The position numbers and the translations under genes were made by a program. From positions 1 to 22,371 of IMG/VR virus record IMGVR_UViG_3300043353_000018: a stretch of 22,371 nt of DNA; one strand, given 5' to 3'. Below the pieces are notes generated by a model. It saw only the letters and a program-made list of their open reading frames with translations, made no database searches and had not been told where the DNA came from. This document shows, one piece after another, positions 2,330 to 22,259 of the stretch (positions are counted from its first letter, which is position 1; each line of letters begins with the position of its first letter). This stretch comes from a virus.

Positions 2330-3175
2330 TTAGAGCGTCGCCTCCACGTATTGGAACGTCAGCACATGCCCTGCCGTGGGAGCGGTCGTAAACACCACGG
2401 AATCGCGTGTGCTTGCCAAGCTGAACAGCGTTGGGTCTACGATAAGCCCTGCATCGCTGATTGCCGTCACATATTCCGCAAGATCCGGCAAGAAAAACGT
2501 CGTCGTGGACCCATCTCCGAGCAACCGATCCACGCCGATGACCGTCCCGGCGCCCGTGCTCGACGCCGCAATCGTGACGCTGGCCGCACCGTTCGTGATG
2601 GTGATGCCGGTGCCTGCCGTCAATGTTCCGAGCGTGACTGAACCGTCCGAGCTTTTCCCGATTGGGACTTGTCCATCCGTCGCGGCCACCACTTTGATGT
2701 CGGCCCCGCCGTTGCCGACCACAAGTTCATTCGCCGTCAGGGCGCCGGCATGCGTGACGGTGCCCGTGGCGGCAATCGCCACATCCTGCGCGAAACTCAG
2801 ACGACCCTTGGCGTCAACGGTGAACTGCCCCACGTGCGTGCTGTCGCCATAGGTGCCAGGAGTCACGCCGGTCGTGGACAGCGTCGTCACGTTGCCATCG
2901 AACGGCGCCGTGATGTCGCCACTCAGCGCGGCTCGAGAGACGGAGGCTTGTCCTGCGACGGCGAGGTTCCAAACGTTGGAATTGCTGTTCGTGACGACAC
3001 GCGCGTTGGGGAGGTCACCATTCGCCACACCGACGAGGTATTCCGCGTTAGCCGGCGCGTTCCCGCCTCCACTCCCGCCCCCGAACAACTGGGCGAAATA
3101 CATCACCCACGGAACGGTCCAATTGCCCTCTTTGGTCAGCGGCGCGTTGTTAAGCGGTGGATAGTCTGTCGGCAT
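2330..3175 (-). CDS. Tail fibre protein with proximal anchoring segment
   Basis: 281 aa. ATG overlaps the previous stop (TGATG). The start MPTDYPPLNNAPLT, then WTVPWVMYFAQLFGG, is the short helical head seen on many phage tail-fibre or spike proteins, and is likely the attachment end. The rest is Gly/Ser/Thr/Val-rich fibre sequence (AEYLVGVANGDLPNARVVT, ALSGDITAPFDGNVTTLS, GDSTHVGQFTVDAKGRLSFA, TAGTGITITNGAASVTI), followed by a small C-terminal domain after residue 210 (VDRLLGDGSTTTFFLPDLAE...). It probably forms the shaft, with the 479-aa neighbour as tip. No catalytic residues are recognised. Confidence 0.8.
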   Translation of the reverse strand: MPTDYPPLNNAPLTKEGNWTVPWVMYFAQLFGGGSGGGNAPANAEYLVGVANGDLPNARVVTNSNSNVWNLAVAGQASVSRAALSGDITAPFDGNVTTLSTTGVTPGTYGDSTHVGQFTVDAKGRLSFAQDVAIAATGTVTHAGALTANELVVGNGGADIKVVAATDGQVPIGKSSDGSVTLGTLTAGTGITITNGAASVTIAASSTGAGTVIGVDRLLGDGSTTTFFLPDLAEYVTAISDAGLIVDPTLFSLASTRDSVVFTTAPTAGHVLTFQYVEATL

Positions 3176-4779
3176 CAGTTATCCCCACCCTCTGCGTCGA
3201 AGTAGGCGCCCACCAGATTCCAGAGGACAGGGTCTGTGCAGGAGACCTCGAAGACCCAGTCCCGTCCTTGCCCCCACTGCCACGCGTTGATGCGGTTGAA
3301 GAACTCGCCCACCCTGCCGGCCGTCAGGCGCCGTTCATTGCCCCACGTAAACCCGCCGTCCTTGCTGGCGCGAATCATCACCAGCGGATCGGGCGTATCG
3401 GCGGTTCCAACTCCTGGCTGCATGTCCACCGCGAAGAGGTTGATACGGACCCTGGTCTGGAGGCCGCCCTTCTCGTTCCAGACAATCGGCGCGCGACGGA
3501 GTCTCCTGCGGACCACTTCGCGGGTCCGGAAGACCGGTTCCGGCGGCGGCGGCGGCGGGACCACGGCCTCGCCAATCGCGAACCAGAGCACCTCGCAGGC
3601 GGTCCCACCGACGGAGTCCCACGTCATCGTAAACGTGCCCGCGTCGTCGTCCAGGTCCGTCAGACTCGCCACCGAGTTGAACGTGGTCGAGGCGCCATTC
3701 GGCGTGGCGAACCGGACCATCGAATCATCGGAGATATAGCGCGCGCCAAAGGCCGGCCCGACGTTCCCGTTCGTCTTCTCTCCCGCCCAGAACCCGCCCT
3801 GACTCGCAATGCTCGAGGCCCATCCCATCGAGAACTGCCCAATGGGAGATTGCGTCGAGGAACTCGCCGCATAGCCCGTGCTCAGCGTGAGCAGCCATTT
3901 AATCGCAAAGCCCACCGTGATGGTCTGACTACCTGTGGCCAGCGGTTGCGTGAACGATCCGGCGGCGGTCTGGATCAAGTCACCCGAGATCGCAATCGGC
4001 TGAGAGACCGCGGCGCTGGGATTCGCAATCGTGAAGGTCGTATCGGCCCATGCCGAGACCGTCGGGCGGCTGCTCTGGGTGCCCGCCCCGCCGTCCAGAT
4101 CGACCGTCCAGCCGTCTGTCCGCTGGGCGCTCCAGTTGTTGCCCTGACTCACCACATACAACGCATCGGTCCCGTAGACCCCGTCGCGCGTGGCAAAGCC
4201 CCATGGGATATTCTGCCCGCCCGTGCCGGTCGCAATCGATCCAGAGGAGCCTGGAACCGGCACGTTCAGCGCGAGTAAGCCCTGCGGCTTGGAGGGCGTC
4301 GTATACGTCCCGCTGGTGTAGTTCGTGAACGTAAAGTCGATGTCATCCCCACCGAACACCGTCACCAGCAGGGAATCGCCCGTGCGGTTGTTCGTGCTGT
4401 AGAGGATGTCGAACTCCCCCGACCGAATCGCAGAGATCTTGGCTGAGCGTTCGACGTGGACGGTGCCAAAGTTGTCCGTCCATTGGTCGATGATCGACGC
4501 ATCTCCACCGGATTCCGACGTGCCAGACGGCTTGAAGTTGAAGATGGAGTAGCAATCCGCGACAGTGCGGGCTGAGCGCACGCTACCAGTATCCACGCCG
4601 CGAAAGTCGGCATACCACGGGAACGCCACGTTGCCAGCGGTGAGGGTATTTATCGCCGCGTAGCCGCTCTGGAAGATGAACAGCTTCCCGATGAACGATC
4701 CCCCGCCATCGGCCACACCCGTCACGGTCTGGGTGCCGGTGCCGGAACGCGCCGCAAAGGACAGGACGCACGATCTCAT
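3175..4779 (-). CDS. Spike/fibre protein carrying a gp10-type C-terminal domain
   Basis: 534 aa from the ATG that overlaps the previous TGA (ATGA); a start 45 nt further upstream is possible, but its first residues are an Arg-rich antisense-like run. Residues about 1-200 and 265-410 look like two copies of a beta-sandwich module (GTGTQTVTG...GKLFIFQSGYAA and ATGSQTITVGFAIKWLLTLS..., the second ending DDAGTFTMTWDSVGG). A Pro run (VVPPPPPPEP) links to residues 416-534, a 119-aa domain 87/119 identical to the end of the upstream beta-helix protein. That domain (RRLRRAPIVW, DPLVMIRASKDGGFTWGNE, CTDPVLWNLVGAYFDAE) resembles the C-terminal part of P22 gp10-type proteins. It is likely a tail appendage docked by this domain; the function is inferred. 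Confidence 0.75.
   Translation of the reverse strand: MRSCVLSFAARSGTGTQTVTGVADGGGSFIGKLFIFQSGYAAINTLTAGNVAFPWYADFRGVDTGSVRSARTVADCYSIFNFKPSGTSESGGDASIIDQWTDNFGTVHVERSAKISAIRSGEFDILYSTNNRTGDSLLVTVFGGDDIDFTFTNYTSGTYTTPSKPQGLLALNVPVPGSSGSIATGTGGQNIPWGFATRDGVYGTDALYVVSQGNNWSAQRTDGWTVDLDGGAGTQSSRPTVSAWADTTFTIANPSAAVSQPIAISGDLIQTAAGSFTQPLATGSQTITVGFAIKWLLTLSTGYAASSSTQSPIGQFSMGWASSIASQGGFWAGEKTNGNVGPAFGARYISDDSMVRFATPNGASTTFNSVASLTDLDDDAGTFTMTWDSVGGTACEVLWFAIGEAVVPPPPPPEPVFRTREVVRRRLRRAPIVWNEKGGLQTRVRINLFAVDMQPGVGTADTPDPLVMIRASKDGGFTWGNERRLTAGRVGEFFNRINAWQWGQGRDWVFEVSCTDPVLWNLVGAYFDAEGGDN
3178..3534 (-). repeat. gp10-type C-terminal domain, copy B
   Basis: Coding direct repeat of 119 codons. It matches copy A at 4779-5135 in the upstream gene at 87 of 119 residues by my alignment, without gaps. 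Both copies end four or fewer codons from their stop. Confidence 0.85.
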
Positions 4780-6860
4780 GCGGTCCCGCCTTCGGCGTCG
4801 AGATACGCTCCCACCACGTTCCACAAGACCGGATCGGTGCAGCTAATCTCAAAGACCCACTGCCGTCCGCTACCCCACTGCCATGCATTCAGCCGCTGGA
4901 CATACCGCCCGACACGGCCTGCGGAAAGTTGCCGCTCGCTGCCCCACGTTCGACCACCGTCACGCGAGGCGCGCACCATCACCATCGGGTCAGGAGAGCC
5001 ACTGGTCCCAACTCCCGGCTGCACATCGACGGCAAACAGGTTGACCCGCACGCGGGTCTGGATGCCCTTGTCTTCCTTCCAGACAATGGGCGCTCTCCGG
5101 AGCCGTCTGCGGACCACATCGCGCAGGTGATAGACCGGCGACGGTGTCGGAGGCGCGGCGATTGTTGTGAAGCTCCAGAGCGGGCCAGATGTCGAGCCGC
5201 TGTCGTTGGTCGCCGTGATACGCCAGTAGTAGGTGCGCCCATTGATCAGCAGCGAGGGGAACGTATAGGTCGTCCCGGCCTGCCCCGTCGAAACGGTTGG
5301 CGGCGAGATCGTGAACCCGAACGCCACATCGTAGGTGTCGGTGTTCCCGCCTGTCACCCACGTCATATCCGTGTCGATGGCGACATCGATGGCCCCATCG
5401 GCAGGACTGGGCGTAGTCGGCGCTCCTGGCAGCGTGGTTGGCGGCGCAGACCCGAATCGCGCGCCGATGTCATCGCCGTCCGTCGCGGCGTTGTGATACG
5501 GCGAGGTCACCTGCAGTTCGTAGTCGTTCGCGGCGCTGTCCGTGAACTCCACGTCGGCCTCAGTGGCCGGGAAGAAGTTGTCAGCCGGATAGCTCGACTC
5601 AAATGCTCCCAGAATCAGGACGTTCTTGAGCATCGAATAGGGGATAGCAAAAGCCGTCAGCGCCGCGGTGCCGAGATTGCCCAACGTGTCGAATATCGCG
5701 AGCCCGTTGTCGTAAAAGATATTGTTCGTCAGCGTGAAGTTCGTGTTGGGCGCATCCACGAAGTAGATCGAGACGGTCCCGCTGTTAATCACCGTGTTGT
5801 GGTCGATGGTGATGGCGTTTCCGCTGTGAATCTGCGCGAAATGCCCCGCCCCGGTCCACGTCCCGCCGTTGATGTCATACGCCACGTTGTCGCGAATGAC
5901 GAGGTTATTCATCGTCACCGAACCAATACCCGACCGATCATCTTTCCCGAGTATGTTGAACAGCGAACCGGAATGCGTAATCGTGTTGTTCGTGCAGGTG
6001 ACGTTCTGGATGGTCGCCCAGTTGTTATCGCCTTCTTCGTTTCTGACCGTGAAGACGAGCGCATAGCCGCTCTGCCCTTCGCCGCCCCAGTTATAGGAGA
6101 AGTCGTTCGTGTCAATCAGGACGTTGACGCCGGTCTTGAGTTCCAGCAGGTTCTTGATGTTGTAGCCCGCCCCGCGCCATGCCTCCAGCTTCGTCACGGT
6201 GTTGTTCGTGAACGTGATGTCGGTCGGCAACAGGTCGGGAATCTGTATCGTGGCCCCGCCGACAAGGAAGTTCTCAGTCGTGGCTTCCAGGTAGCAGTTG
6301 TCAATCGTCCACGGTCCCGGACCGTTCCAGCCGGCAATCGCCTGCGCGTCCTGTCCCGTCTTCTTGATGTCGCTGATGTAGCAGTTCTTGATGGTCGTCG
6401 TCGCGGACTGCAGCGAAATGCCGCGCTTCTGGCCGTAGGTCGCATCCCCGTGGATGTAACAGCGGTCCACGACGAGATTAGACGGCACGGATGCGAGGGT
6501 GTTCTGGGCGCTCGAGCCATCCCCCAGCGTCAGGATGTCGTTGTCTCCCGTAGGCGTGGCGAGCAACTCAAGGCCGAGCAGCGTCCAGTTCTGGCACGCG
6601 GCCACCGTCGCGAACGCAGGGCCGCCACCGGACGCCGGTTGAATCTTGGCGAACGCAGCCGCCGTCGCTGGCGTGACACGCACGCCCGGAGACGGCAAAC
6701 TGCCGCCGGATTGAATGATGATGGCCGCCCCGCTGTGAATCGGCAGGTAGTAATTGCCAGTGAACGTCGCGGAGGCGTCGAGTTCCAGAATATCCCCGCC
6801 CGCCGCGGCGTTGATTGCGGCTTGCAGATCATCGCCAGCGTGGACGAGGATGGTCGCCAC
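4776..6860 (-). CDS. Right-handed beta-helix spike with Fn3-like and gp10-type C-terminal domains
   Basis: 694 aa. It starts with GTG directly after the TAA of the gp10-like gene. Residues about 1-460 are a parallel beta-helix: an HAGDDLQAAINAAAGGD opening and many short NN turns (FTNNTVT, CTNNTITHSG, LTNNIFYDNG), as in pectate-lyase-like and phage spike folds. Residues about 478-570 form an Fn3/Ig-like module (PSPADGAIDVAIDTDMTW, YYWRITATNDSG, LWSFTT). Residues 576-694 are the 119-aa gp10-type domain shared with the next gene. It is probably a tail spike that binds or cleaves surface glycan; I see no defined catalytic triad. The helix and Fn3 parts resemble proteins of environmental bacteria, suggesting capture from a host, though this is inference. 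Confidence 0.8.
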   Translation of the reverse strand: MATILVHAGDDLQAAINAAAGGDILELDASATFTGNYYLPIHSGAAIIIQSGGSLPSPGVRVTPATAAAFAKIQPASGGGPAFATVAACQNWTLLGLELLATPTGDNDILTLGDGSSAQNTLASVPSNLVVDRCYIHGDATYGQKRGISLQSATTTIKNCYISDIKKTGQDAQAIAGWNGPGPWTIDNCYLEATTENFLVGGATIQIPDLLPTDITFTNNTVTKLEAWRGAGYNIKNLLELKTGVNVLIDTNDFSYNWGGEGQSGYALVFTVRNEEGDNNWATIQNVTCTNNTITHSGSLFNILGKDDRSGIGSVTMNNLVIRDNVAYDINGGTWTGAGHFAQIHSGNAITIDHNTVINSGTVSIYFVDAPNTNFTLTNNIFYDNGLAIFDTLGNLGTAALTAFAIPYSMLKNVLILGAFESSYPADNFFPATEADVEFTDSAANDYELQVTSPYHNAATDGDDIGARFGSAPPTTLPGAPTTPSPADGAIDVAIDTDMTWVTGGNTDTYDVAFGFTISPPTVSTGQAGTTYTFPSLLINGRTYYWRITATNDSGSTSGPLWSFTTIAAPPTPSPVYHLRDVVRRRLRRAPIVWKEDKGIQTRVRVNLFAVDVQPGVGTSGSPDPMVMVRASRDGGRTWGSERQLSAGRVGRYVQRLNAWQWGSGRQWVFEISCTDPVLWNVVGAYLDAEGGTA
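4779..5135 (-). repeat. gp10-type C-terminal domain, copy A
   Basis: Coding direct repeat partner of 3178-3534, at the very end of the beta-helix gene (RRLRRAPIVWKEDKG through AYLDAEGGTA). Confidence 0.85.
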
Positions 6861-10746: not shown

Positions 10747-11913
10747 CTATCCGCCGACGCGGCAGGCCAGTTCCTGACGCAGCACGGCTACGCCGTAGAG
10801 CACGTCGAGACGCTGGATCCACTGGTCGCTGGTGGCGACGTAATCGCGAATGACGCGGATGCTCTTGCCCGACTTGCGCGACGCCGCGCGATACGCCTTG
10901 TCCGTGCCACCCGGGAGCGGCATGTCCACCATCGCGAGCGTCCCGAAGTCCTTGTGGACCGCGAGATTCTGCGGGGAGACCTTGCTGGCGACGTTCGCGA
11001 AGTTCGCCGCTGCCGTGTCGAACACGTAGACCGCCGTCGAGGTCGCCGGCAGGTTCGTGACGTTCTGCAGCTGCGAGCCGGGTCCGATGATGGCCGGCGC
11101 GAACGGAATCACCATCGTGCCGCCCGCATCCGCCGTGGTCGCCGTGACGACGAACTGCATCGGCTGTCCAGTGCTCTGGTAGCTCTGGGGATTCACGGCG
11201 TTGACCGGCACCGATGTGGAGATGAACGAGATCACATCCCCGGCGTTCAGGATGCCCGTGCTCCAGCCTGTGGTGCTGATCGTGGTCGCACCGCTCGATG
11301 GCGACGTGCCGACAACCGGCGTCGAGGCGCCGAGTGCGCCCACGGTGTGGACGTAGACGTTCTGATCCATATACCAGTCGAAGCCGATGGACCGGCCCAT
11401 CATGCCCGACAGATACTGCTCGCGGATTTCGTTCGCGGCCTGAAAGAGACCCTTCAGGTTGTCCACGATGGACGATTCCGCAGCGGGGTTCAGGAACATG
11501 CAGCGGCCGCCGTCCATCGGGGCAGCGTTGTTGTCCAGACGGGTCTTCGCGGCGAGGTAGGTCGAGAGTGCGGTCGGCGTCGTGCCGGGAACCCCGACGA
11601 AGTTGTTGATGCCCTGCGCCAGCCCGCACACGTCCTGGTCGATCAGGTTGCTCACGCGAACCACCTGCGGCTCGAGGACGCGCTTGCGGTAGTTGTCGAT
11701 GTCGAGGGTCAACTGCTGCGAACTGACCTGGGTGTCCACACCGCGCTGATACGACAGCGTGAGAGGCACCTGCGTCTCGGTGATGGCTTCGATCTGGGCC
11801 GCCTGTCCGAGACGACCGAGATACCGCGGTGGTTTGCGGATGTTCAGCGTCTGGCCGAGCACGGCGCCGCCGAACTCGAACTGGTTGCTGTATTCGCTGT
11901 TGATGTGGATCAT
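10747..11913 (-). CDS. Major capsid (coat) protein, P22 gp5-like
   Basis: 388 aa from the first in-frame ATG; this is probably not the true N-terminus. Family features: INSEYSNQFEFGGAVLGQTL, RKPPRYLGRLGQAAQIEAIT, IDQDVCGLAQGINNFVGV and QQLTLDIDNYRKRVLEPQV, as in the P22-like HK97-fold coat, with an inserted beta-rich region in the middle (about 150-270). P22 coat is 430 aa. The frame stays open upstream to 11998, and the extra residues ANTLLTNDIVTYEALDILEN are exactly the conserved coat N-terminus, so about 25 residues are cut off by the ATG at 11913. That ATG has no good ribosome site. The scaffold gene lies upstream with an endonuclease gene between. Identity is strong; the start is unresolved. 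Confidence 0.85.
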   Translation of the reverse strand: MIHINSEYSNQFEFGGAVLGQTLNIRKPPRYLGRLGQAAQIEAITETQVPLTLSYQRGVDTQVSSQQLTLDIDNYRKRVLEPQVVRVSNLIDQDVCGLAQGINNFVGVPGTTPTALSTYLAAKTRLDNNAAPMDGGRCMFLNPAAESSIVDNLKGLFQAANEIREQYLSGMMGRSIGFDWYMDQNVYVHTVGALGASTPVVGTSPSSGATTISTTGWSTGILNAGDVISFISTSVPVNAVNPQSYQSTGQPMQFVVTATTADAGGTMVIPFAPAIIGPGSQLQNVTNLPATSTAVYVFDTAAANFANVASKVSPQNLAVHKDFGTLAMVDMPLPGGTDKAYRAASRKSGKSIRVIRDYVATSDQWIQRLDVLYGVAVLRQELACRVGG

Positions 11914-11988
11914 CGCGTTGTAGGTGTTCTCGAGGATGTCGAGAGCCTCATACGTGACAATGTCATTTGTAAGCAGCGTGTTCGCGAT
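11914..11988 (-). other. Coat protein N-terminal coding stretch lacking a canonical start
   Basis: 25 in-frame codons upstream of the coat ATG encode I-ANTLLTNDIVTYEALDILEN-TYNA, the family N-terminus. The first codon, where MANTLLT-type homologues have ATG, is ATC (11986-11988). AGGG lies 7 nt before it. The GIY-YIG stop is only 4 nt upstream. No ATG, GTG or TTG is in frame before 11913. Confidence 0.7.
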
Positions 11989-11992
11989 ATAG

Positions 11993-12679
11993 CTACCCTA
12001 CCTTCGATTCCACACCAGACTGCTTCGCCGCCTCAAACATCGCGCGTCGCTTCGCTGACCACGGCTTGCCACGCTTCGTGGCTGCCATTTTCCACGCCCA
12101 CGTAGACGTGTCTCGGCCAGTCATCAACGCCCGCATATGGGCTTTGTATTCGTCGGTGTGTTTCTTGCCGGTGTTGGAGAGACTGATCTTCTGACAATGC
12201 TCAGGCGAATGCTTGCGCCCACGTAGCGTGGCGGCTTGGGTCGGATTCGACTGGCCGCGGCGAGCAGCCGCGATGTTCGCCCGATGCGTATCTGACTTCG
12301 GACGACCGCGCATGGCCTCTGCCATCTTCAGCCGTGAGGCGTCGGTATGACGGAAGCCATCGCGTGGGCCTGAGCCAGCACGTCGAGCGGCATTGTAAAG
12401 ATCGGTGGATGCGTCGATATGGGTTTGCTCTGCGGCTATGGCGTCGTTCCGGCTTGCACATTCGGAGACGAACGACCAGGAAAACGCTTTCCCGCCATAC
12501 TGCGACCAATCCATCTGCAACGCATCGTTGGGATGATTCCCATTGGTGAGTTTGGACAGATGCTCACGCCAACGGCGAGGCACATCGGAACTGCTCCCGA
12601 TGTAGACCTTACCCGTGACGAGATTGGTGATGGCGTAGACGCCGATCAAGCCGTAAACCCTCTGAGGGTTGTCGCGCAT
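11993..12679 (-). CDS. GIY-YIG homing endonuclease with NUMOD-type repeats
   Basis: 228 aa. The nuclease domain is residues about 11-100: GVY at 13-15, YIG at 26-28, the Arg-containing RRWREH at 35-40, and a catalytic-type Glu in AAEQTHID at about 84, then LYNAARR. From about 108 come NUMOD3-like DNA-binding repeats (FRHTDASRLKMAEAMRGRPK, DTHRANIAAARRG, KHSPEHCQKISLSNTGKKHT). It introduces a site-specific break that copies its own gene into empty alleles. It sits between scaffold and coat, a typical conserved target, and has lower G+C (31/60 in one sampled line) than its neighbours. Whether it is free-standing or inside an intron is open: I find no group I core. Start by first ATG; the domain begins 10 residues later. 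Confidence 0.85.
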   Translation of the reverse strand: MRDNPQRVYGLIGVYAITNLVTGKVYIGSSSDVPRRWREHLSKLTNGNHPNDALQMDWSQYGGKAFSWSFVSECASRNDAIAAEQTHIDASTDLYNAARRAGSGPRDGFRHTDASRLKMAEAMRGRPKSDTHRANIAAARRGQSNPTQAATLRGRKHSPEHCQKISLSNTGKKHTDEYKAHMRALMTGRDTSTWAWKMAATKRGKPWSAKRRAMFEAAKQSGVESKVG

Positions 12680-12776
12680 CCCCTACCGGCTCAATAGGGT
12701 GAGCACTGAAGCCATGCACTCTCGCCGTCGATGCCGGACATAGCGACGACGGAGCGCCCGAACGACGAAGGTCTAT
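12680..12776 (-). other. Scaffold-endonuclease gap with possible old coat start and hairpins
   Basis: 97 nt. It contains GAGAGTGCATGGCTT, a plausible ribosome site and ATGGCT (12710-12715), in a position fitting an original coat start. It also contains CCCTA-N9-TAGGG (12681-12699) and, just inside the endonuclease gene, AACCCT-CAG-AGGGTT. The GGCTT at 12709-12713 can pair with GAGCC about 17 nt downstream ending in a U-G pair, the shape of a group I P1 helix, but nothing else of such an intron is visible. Confidence 0.3.
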
Positions 12777-13736
12777 CTACCGCTTGCGCCCGAGTTCTCT
12801 GGCGCGCTTCTCGCGGTAGCCGCTGCTGTCGAAGTCATAGCCTGCCTTCTTCGGCAGCTCTGACAACGGCACAGAGGCGGTGCGACTGCCCGATCCAACC
12901 GGCGAATACGGGGCAGGGACGGACGACTCTCGCGGCGCCGAGGCCGGACTAGCAGCAGCCTGTGAGAGTTGCGACACGGCGATGCCGAAGTCGATATCGG
13001 TCATCGAAGCGAGACGCGAGGCGAAGGCACCATCTCTGGCGATGGCGTAGAGGACATGATCCGCGTCCGGACGGCTGACGAGCCAGTCGCGGCGCTGTTT
13101 CCCAAAGTCAATCTGCGAACCTGGACCCTGCGCGATGACCGCATCGAAGTCCGGATAGCTCTGACGGGCTTTCGTGAAGACGCCGCTCACGGTATCGGCA
13201 AAGTGGCGCGTCGCACGATCGGCTTCAATGCCCTGACGGACGGCAGCGTTGATGTCGAACGCACCGAGGCGCTGTTCCACCTTCCAATCCGCGAGGTCTT
13301 CCGCGAAGTCGGCGTAACTCTGGTATTTCGTGCCGATCTCGTCTTCGATGGGCTTCGTGCGCGTCGCGGCGGGCTGTGGCGCAGCGTCCAGGCGAGAAGG
13401 GGGTTCTGCCGGCGCACGTTCCACAGGGGCCGCTAACCTCGCACGAAGTTCGTCGCGCTCGCGCTTCGCCTCTGCCGCATCCCGACGGGCCTCTTCGCGT
13501 TCGCGGGTTAGTTCGTCAAAGCGGCGCTGGCCGCGGGTCTGTTTGGGTTGCGCGGGCTGAAATTGCCCGGTATCGGTGCGGGCCTGAGTGGGTGCGGCAG
13601 GCTCTGGTTCAGCCTCCGTGTGCCGGTCCATCGTCTCCGCGAGGTTGTCTTGCGAGACGCCGACGCCGGTCAGAATCCGTCCATCGACCTCATGCGAGAC
13701 CTGGACATTCGGATCAACCGCAACCGACTCACTCAT
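12777..13736 (-). CDS. Capsid scaffolding protein
   Basis: 319 aa, acidic and helical. Ribosome site GGAG 8 nt before ATG. Residues about 35-70 are a disordered Pro/Gln/Thr region, 68-100 a strongly charged coiled coil (RRFDELTREREEARRDAAEA, KRERDELRARLAAP), 130-235 helical (KYQSYADFAEDLADWKVEQR, SYPDFDAVIAQ), and 250-290 Ser/Pro/Ala-rich. It ends in a basic segment (REKRARELGRKR), as in P22-type scaffolds, whose C-terminal basic helix-turn-helix binds coat. Placement between portal and coat is standard. It directs procapsid assembly and is lost on maturation. Confidence 0.8.
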   Translation of the reverse strand: MSESVAVDPNVQVSHEVDGRILTGVGVSQDNLAETMDRHTEAEPEPAAPTQARTDTGQFQPAQPKQTRGQRRFDELTREREEARRDAAEAKRERDELRARLAAPVERAPAEPPSRLDAAPQPAATRTKPIEDEIGTKYQSYADFAEDLADWKVEQRLGAFDINAAVRQGIEADRATRHFADTVSGVFTKARQSYPDFDAVIAQGPGSQIDFGKQRRDWLVSRPDADHVLYAIARDGAFASRLASMTDIDFGIAVSQLSQAAASPASAPRESSVPAPYSPVGSGSRTASVPLSELPKKAGYDFDSSGYREKRARELGRKR

Positions 13737-13790: not shown

Positions 13791-14243
13791 TCACCTAGAC
13801 CTAGCGCCAGCCATTATCATGGTTCGGCCAGATGGCACCATGAACGCGTCCGTCCGCGTATTTGATGCTGCCGGGACGTCGATGTCCGCTGGCGGCACTG
13901 ACGTTGGAAGTAGATAGTTTGGCCTCGTGAACAGTTCAAGCGCCCTATTTCTACGGCGCTCTCCAAGCCACGGCCAGAACTTAATAAGCACGAGGTGGCA
14001 CTTCTGGTCCCCGTGTATGCGCCACTCAAACATCGTCTTGTGATGCTCGTGTTCCTTCGTGAACCGTTGACGAATACGGCCTATTCCTACCGCAGAAACG
14101 AACCGCTCCATGACGTCCAGGTCCGACATGCAGCACGCCAGCACTGGCGTTTCTGGGTTTCCGCTATGAGTGATGCATCCTTCGCCCTCGAAGAGACCAG
14201 CAGCCCAGGCTATTTCGGTCAAGCTCCGTGTCATCTCGTTCAT
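13791..14243 (-). CDS. LAGLIDADG-type homing endonuclease
   Basis: 150 aa with ATGA overlap to the preceding gene. The motif IAWAAGLFEGEGCI at residues 11-24 is a LAGLIDADG helix with acidic residues E19/E21, followed by a strand region (SDLDVMERFVSAVGIGRIRQ, HKTMFEWRIHGDQKCHLVLI) and FWPWLGERRRNRALEL, the usual single-motif layout. Such proteins dimerise to cut DNA. The C-terminal 45 residues are disordered-looking. G+C is lower than in flanking genes (31/60 in one sampled line). It lies between small genes after portal and the scaffold. No intron features are visible, so it is taken as free-standing. Confidence 0.75.
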   Translation of the reverse strand: MNEMTRSLTEIAWAAGLFEGEGCITHSGNPETPVLACCMSDLDVMERFVSAVGIGRIRQRFTKEHEHHKTMFEWRIHGDQKCHLVLIKFWPWLGERRRNRALELFTRPNYLLPTSVPPADIDVPAASNTRTDAFMVPSGRTMIMAGARSR

Positions 14244-21704: not shown

Positions 21705-22259
21705 TTAGACCGGAGGCAAGGAAACAAATCGCCCTGTCTCGGGATTTATAGGAGGCATGGAGCGCCGCGGCCTCCGATTGTTCGCCTGAAGCGTCGGATC
21801 GGCCCACCTAACATTCCCAGACATGTAGCCGAGGTCGTTGTTAATCCTGTCAATAGATGCCCGTGGAAACGGCGATGGCCCCAACTCTCGTTCAATATCA
21901 GCTATATACCGCTCTGGGCGCTGCCATTCAGGTGCGACCGAAATACCGCGCCCACCGTAATAACTGAATTGCTTATGGGAGGGGTCACAGCATCGACCCA
22001 TCATGTGCGCCCAACGGCTATAGAGGGGATGCTTCGAGACGCCATGTGTGCGGCTCTGCTGCGACATACGCTCGCGGGTATAGCACCCACAGGATCGCGT
22101 GGCATCACCGGGGCGCAAACTATTCGACCATACCGTGACTTCCGCGCCGCAGGCGCAGCGGCAGACCCACATGGGCACACCGCGCGTCTTATCAGCGCCA
22201 CGCCGCAGAATCGTCAGCCGACCGTAGACCCATCCCGTCCTATCGACAGCATGATTCAT
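21705..22259 (-). CDS. HNH endonuclease (phage zinc-ribbon type)
   Basis: 184 aa; ATGA overlap with the upstream small ORF. Residues 1-60: RTGWVYGRLTILRRG, then VCRCACGAEVTVWSNSLRPG and SCGC, an N-terminal Cys module (C33, C35, C37, C57, C59). Residues about 72-125: HGVSKHPLYSRWAHMMGRC and FSYYGGRGISVAPEWQ. Residues 135-163: SIDRINNDLGYMSGNVRWAD and QANNRR, the core of this well-known phage HNH group. It nicks or cuts DNA for homing, or assists packaging when next to terminase; here two genes separate it from the terminase region. G+C is lower than average (29/60 in one sampled line). Confidence 0.85.
   Translation of the reverse strand: MNHAVDRTGWVYGRLTILRRGADKTRGVPMWVCRCACGAEVTVWSNSLRPGDATRSCGCYTRERMSQQSRTHGVSKHPLYSRWAHMMGRCCDPSHKQFSYYGGRGISVAPEWQRPERYIADIERELGPSPFPRASIDRINNDLGYMSGNVRWADPTLQANNRRPRRSMPPINPETGRFVSLPPV

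Follow-up and report, generated by a model that had tools for sequence, protein, structure and literature searches.

An ATC Codon at the Start of a Phage Coat Gene

Where does translation of a phage coat gene begin when the codon found at the initiator position of its homologs is ATC? The question is raised by IMG/VR virus record IMGVR_UViG_3300043353_000018, whose positions 1 to 22,371 (herein the window) cover a fragment (22.4 kb) of the genome of a P22-like phage whose late genes lie on the minus strand; those for the large terminase, portal, scaffold, coat, and tail were identified. The coat gene (10747-11988, minus strand; 413 codons plus stop, counted from ATC) is recognized by its PF11651 domain (E = 3.5e-27), its relatives, and the gene order portal-scaffold-coat. 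Its ATC (11986-11988, minus strand) takes the Met1 position of homologs and is followed by GCG AAC ACG, the beginning of A-N-T-L-L-T-N-D-I-V-T-Y-E-A-L-D-I-L-E-N. The first in-frame ATG (11913-11911) lies 25 codons downstream of ATC, and directly upstream the coat frame contains a TAG stop (TAG GGT AGC TAT ATC); because the frame is closed there, no ATG, GTG, or TTG is usable before 11913. A Shine-Dalgarno (SD)-like AGGG (11996-11999, minus strand) stands 7 nucleotides (nt) before ATC. The intervening spacer TAGCTAT (11989-11995, minus strand) is identical in eight coat genes and before unrelated genes, and its TAG doubles as the stop codon (11995-11993) of a homing-endonuclease gene, 4 nt before ATC.

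We conclude from comparative sequence analysis that the coat is most probably translated from AUC at 11986-11988 and that this codon is part of an initiation element that is portable and specific to phages. The original prediction had placed the coat frame, the ATC, the AGGG at 7 nt, the endonuclease stop at 4 nt, and an ATGGCTT (12715-12709) where we also find them. A rare AUC start was one of the options that it offered, and it is the one that the data support; its overall interpretation, that the start had been lost owing to an endonuclease, does not hold.

Eight Coat Genes Share the ATC Codon

We compared 80 relatives of the coat, taken from virus contigs, at their starts. The normal start codon among them is ATG, GTG, or TTG; eight coats have ATC (the window, L001, together with L002, L006, L010, L020, L031, L042, and L046). 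An identical 13-mer, GGGTAGCTATATC, is present at the Met1 position in all eight and in none of the other compared coats; with the same 13-mer in the same place in eight genes, the coincidence of ATC with the start of homologs is not a matter of chance. The eight coats come from several metagenomes and have differing flanks. Across them, the ratio of nonsynonymous to synonymous polymorphism (pN/pS) is 0.23 for codons 2 through 25 and 0.22 for codons 27 through 60, and this equality indicates that codons 2 through 25 are translated. When the ATC label is mapped on a tree of 53 coat proteins, six changes are required, at least four of them forced by well-supported branches, and 0 bootstrap trees give it a single origin; these multiple changes imply repeated gain of the element or its repeated movement from one lineage to another.

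Three other coats are of note. Those of L212 (2715, plus strand) and L215 (4079-4113, minus strand), both P22-like, have ATC at Met1 behind a different common leader, TTTGCAGCC, and L212 has no canonical in-frame start; the shared leader is possibly a second kind of AUC start. The coat of L053 has a TTG start in a related context (GGGTAGCGATTTG; 3984-4000), possibly a relic or an intermediate of the element.

The Leader Precedes Unrelated Phage Genes

A short fixed leader, GGGTAGCTAT, also precedes many unrelated genes of other phages. Scanning 2.9 million IMG/VR contigs for the 16-mer AGGGTAGCTATATCGC gave 20 distinct sites on 19 contigs, and 19 of the 20 directly precede a long open frame starting at ATC (the exception is in L219). 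Among the non-coat genes behind the leader are those for other major head proteins (L221, L230), a tape measure protein (L225), divergent members of phrog_644 (L201, L223), a tail-fiber-like protein (L227, L228), phrog_17226 (L220), and others. A site was scored as a strict start when a frame of at least 80 amino acids (aa) had a stop at most 30 codons upstream with no canonical start between. By this test 17 of the 20 viral sites are starts, vs. 0 of the 34 copies of AGGGTAGCTATATCGC in 84,980 bacterial and archaeal genomes (p ~2e-11); none of those 34 copies stands at a gene start. The SD sequence is at a suitable distance and the open stretch holds no canonical start; only in L002 and L201 might an upstream TTG serve. 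Downstream, a canonical start is first reached at codon index 99 in L224, 103 in L020, and 149 in L226.

The total comes to 31 start sites on 29 contigs: 24 with ATC, 3 with ACG, 2 with ATT, and 2 with ATA. Two contigs have two sites each (L330, ACG and ATA; L221, both ATC). Outside the window about half of the sites have GGAGGG as the SD sequence. The second codon is mostly that of Ala or Pro, as is usual after Met. A 144-aa frame in L335 (3672-4103, minus strand) has a possible ATC start behind GGAGGGTTGAAAT, without the TAGCTAT spacer.

Codon and Spacer Are Restricted

With the codon behind the leader GGAGGGTAGCTAT left free (pattern GGAGGGTAGCTATNNNNC), 61 distinct sites were found; 15 of the 18 with ATC, ATT, ATA, or ACG are strict starts, vs. 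0 of the 43 with any other codon. One ATG case behind GGAGGGTAGCTAT (L291) looks real and fails the strict test through upstream starts. A separate scan for the leader followed by ATG, GTG, or TTG and GC returned nine matches, none of them a gene start. With four spacer bases left free (pattern GGAGGGTNNNNATATCGC; 72 distinct sites), strict starts make up 7 of the 8 sites with AGCT vs. 5 of the 64 with all other spacers; on these counts AGCT in the spacer is specific. One of the latter five (L394, 418 aa) has the spacer ATCT, one base off, and looks like a true spacer variant. Matches to the pattern GTAGCTATATCNCNAAY were mostly due to chance.

Two of the near-cognate codons align with starts annotated in other phages, an ATG in each case: the ATC of L230 with that of the major head gene of isolate Tunturi_3, and the ATA of L326 with that of replication genes in Escherichia phages TL-2011b and 673R7. 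In L225 the match to the tape-measure profile starts at residue 2. The near-cognate codons are each one step away from AUG and fall outside the AUG/GUG/UUG set, and initiation factor 3 (IF3) discriminates against start codons other than these three (PMC4611024). We regard the sequence evidence for AUC as the start of the coat as strong.

A Proposed Initiation Element

The element would have three parts: AGGG or, in many cases, GGAGGG as the SD sequence; UAGCUAU as a fixed spacer of 7 nt; and a near-cognate codon, most commonly AUC and elsewhere AUU, AUA, or ACG. An Ala or Pro codon usually comes next. The 30S subunit would dock through SD pairing, and initiator fMet-tRNA would read the near-cognate codon despite a single mismatch. 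The 7-nt spacer stays constant amid variable surroundings, and for this reason it may make up for the weak codon, perhaps through less rejection by IF3. The element would work without an endonuclease and without an upstream gene; translational coupling was considered as a requirement and rejected, as several sites (L394, L042, L230) have no gene ending nearby. A likeness of the motif to tRNA D-arms or to rRNA was judged to be chance. We suggest, tentatively, that GGGUAGCUAU together with a near-cognate codon could be a dedicated phage start signal that is specifically recognized, either by a phage factor or by a state of the ribosome during infection. If so, selected genes would have a route of translation of their own, one not taken by host genes.

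Several points weigh against AUC initiation through such an element. One would not expect major capsid genes to rely on AUC, which in Escherichia coli is a very weak start codon. The spacer paired no better than shuffled spacers did with E. coli 16S and 23S rRNA and with the tested tRNAs. An all-against-all comparison of 24 phage records revealed no gene common to all of the phages, its only matches being between related structural genes of the P22-like phages, and no IF3 homolog was found in 14 phage records. The long contigs hold neither an altered initiator tRNA nor a tRNA with a GAU anticodon; the only tRNA-Met in them (L221 contig) begins G-G-G and is not initiator-like. Finally, the scans hold parts of the motif fixed and sample its degeneracy only in part, and the strict start test was set after the first matches had been seen.

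Alternative Explanations

Homing endonucleases might themselves drive the pattern, the leader and the altered codon being a target site or an escape allele that is spread by co-conversion, with AUC initiation only tolerated. GIY-YIG genes are indeed concentrated upstream of ATC coats (6 of 8 vs. about 4 of 45 other coats; p 2e-4), and other sites follow LAGLIDADG (L221), HNH (L326), and AP2/HNH-like (L220) genes. However, no endonuclease adjoins about two thirds of the sites, the neighboring endonucleases belong to unrelated families, and four relatives (L009, L012, L055, L078) bear an endonuclease yet keep normal coat starts; AUC initiation would, moreover, be needed all the same. We consider this account unlikely. 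In L042 and L046 the gap between scaffold and coat is free of endonuclease genes, and yet both carry GGGTAGCTATATC with its ATC, and the leader also stands before unrelated genes; the endonuclease is thus not the cause of the ATC, and comparison with endonuclease-free relatives at the scaffold-coat gap speaks against a start lost through its insertion, as had been proposed. The association of endonucleases with the element is real but partial. Perhaps a conserved start region offers a good target for homing, or perhaps the takeover of a self-contained start element is favored by endonuclease insertion.

An altered mRNA could also account for the presence of one exact short sequence, not followed by an AUG, ahead of unrelated genes, and for its repeated gain on the coat tree: trans-splicing, another form of leader joining, or editing would supply the AUG, and GGGTAGCTAT would be an acceptor signal. 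Yet no donor sequence, ribozyme, or shared gene was found, the codon behind the leader is restricted to one-step neighbors of AUG and is not random, and a splice acceptor would require neither that restriction, nor an SD sequence at the right distance, nor a typical second codon, nor a place at Met1 with coding selection behind it, which makes such a change to the mRNA decidedly improbable. Splicing within the locus, an option of the original prediction, would have a group I (or II) intron with its endonuclease split the coat after ATG-GCT(T) at 12709-12715. Such introns commonly hold GIY-YIG genes, the ATGGCTT does lie upstream, and the bases around the junction of TATATCG and CGAAC could restore M-A-S-N-T. 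The absence of a group I core that had been noted is borne out, however, as no Rfam intron model matched the region up to E 10 (at the curated threshold and up to that value, Rfam gave no group I/II intron or other known RNA, only two snoRNA-like chance matches), and only about 40 nt lie outside the endonuclease gene. In L006, L010, L042, and L046, ATG occurs between the scaffold stop and ATC only inside the endonuclease's own frame, leaving no plausible first exon, and viral copies of the sequence stand at gene starts; we judge an intron highly improbable. There is likewise very little chance that translation of a shortened coat begins with the ATG at 11911-11913, even though this is the first canonical in-frame start. 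That ATG is not conserved among the ATC coats (the position is CTG in L020, TTG in L031, and TCA in L042 and L046), the next canonical start of L020 being the one at codon index 103, and codons 2 through 25 are under the same, full purifying selection as codons 27 through 60. An assembly or sequencing error at 11986-11988 has a negligible probability, the same bases having been assembled in independent contigs from several metagenomes with differing flanks.

Features Surrounding the Coat Gene

The endonuclease gene between scaffold and coat (11993-12679, minus strand) encodes both a GIY-YIG domain and NUMOD3 DNA-binding motifs (PF01541, PF07460); a gene of this kind is present at the same place in some relatives and absent in others. 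The scaffold gene lies upstream (12777-13736, minus strand) and was assigned by position, having no Pfam match. Just before the endonuclease ATG there is a hairpin (12680-12699, minus strand) with the conserved loop AGCCGGTA, which recurs upstream of many coat genes of the family. Hairpins are also seen upstream of the coat start in L031 (3813-3860) and, near 3940-3985, in L045, L049, L052, and L055. In at least 10 relatives the loop is constant (NNNN-AGCC[A/G]GTA) while the stem sequence varies between phages; a conserved RNA element upstream of coat genes is likely from this pattern, and the hairpin at 12680-12699 is probably separate from the start element.

Two further genes of the window (13791-14243 and 21705-22259, both minus strand) are homing endonuclease-like by eye (LAGLIDADG-like and HNH-like, respectively) and have no Pfam match. 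The neighboring tail genes at 3175-4824 and 4776-6860 (minus strand) resemble each other over a C-terminal module of about 120 aa, which suggests that this part was duplicated or exchanged.

Relation to Known Systems

We found no description of the sequence, or of AUC starts in phages, in the open-access literature. Non-AUG starts are known; a portable, sequence-specific leader dedicated to them appears to be new, and its occurrence before phage genes and before no gene in bacteria suggests a start signal that we have not found described. Gene finders as a rule recognize no starts but ATG, GTG, and TTG, so that genes with the element, major capsid genes among them, are wrongly shortened or missed. 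If the leader truly makes AUC, AUU, AUA, and ACG strong starts, it would be a compact natural tool for the study of start-codon choice by the bacterial ribosome and IF3. It would also raise the question of why phages, and not bacteria, use the leader.

Cleavage of initiator tRNA by VapC leads to initiation at elongator codons (Winther and Gerdes, cited in PMC3905216). That case shows that bacterial ribosomes are able to start at non-start codons; as it is cited there, it is a response to stress and involves no conserved leader. The intergenic endonuclease between phage genes resembles the free-standing homing endonucleases of T4-like phages (PMC2988022), unlike which it has a neighbor gene with a non-AUG start and an adjoining element that also occurs without any endonuclease. 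The group I introns in capsid and tail genes of Cluster J mycobacteriophages (PMC3706429) likewise provide an endonuclease-bearing interruption at a capsid gene. Those introns interrupt the coding frame and are spliced, whereas the locus described here has no intron core and no first exon. In E. coli, infC, the gene for IF3, initiates at AUU, and there are similar cases. As in infC, a good SD sequence in the phage genes precedes a Met1 codon that is near-cognate and of the form AUH; unlike infC, they have a leader that is not used at gene starts in the bacterial genomes scanned, and a fixed 7-nt spacer and near-cognate codon set that recur before unrelated phage genes, including major capsid genes.
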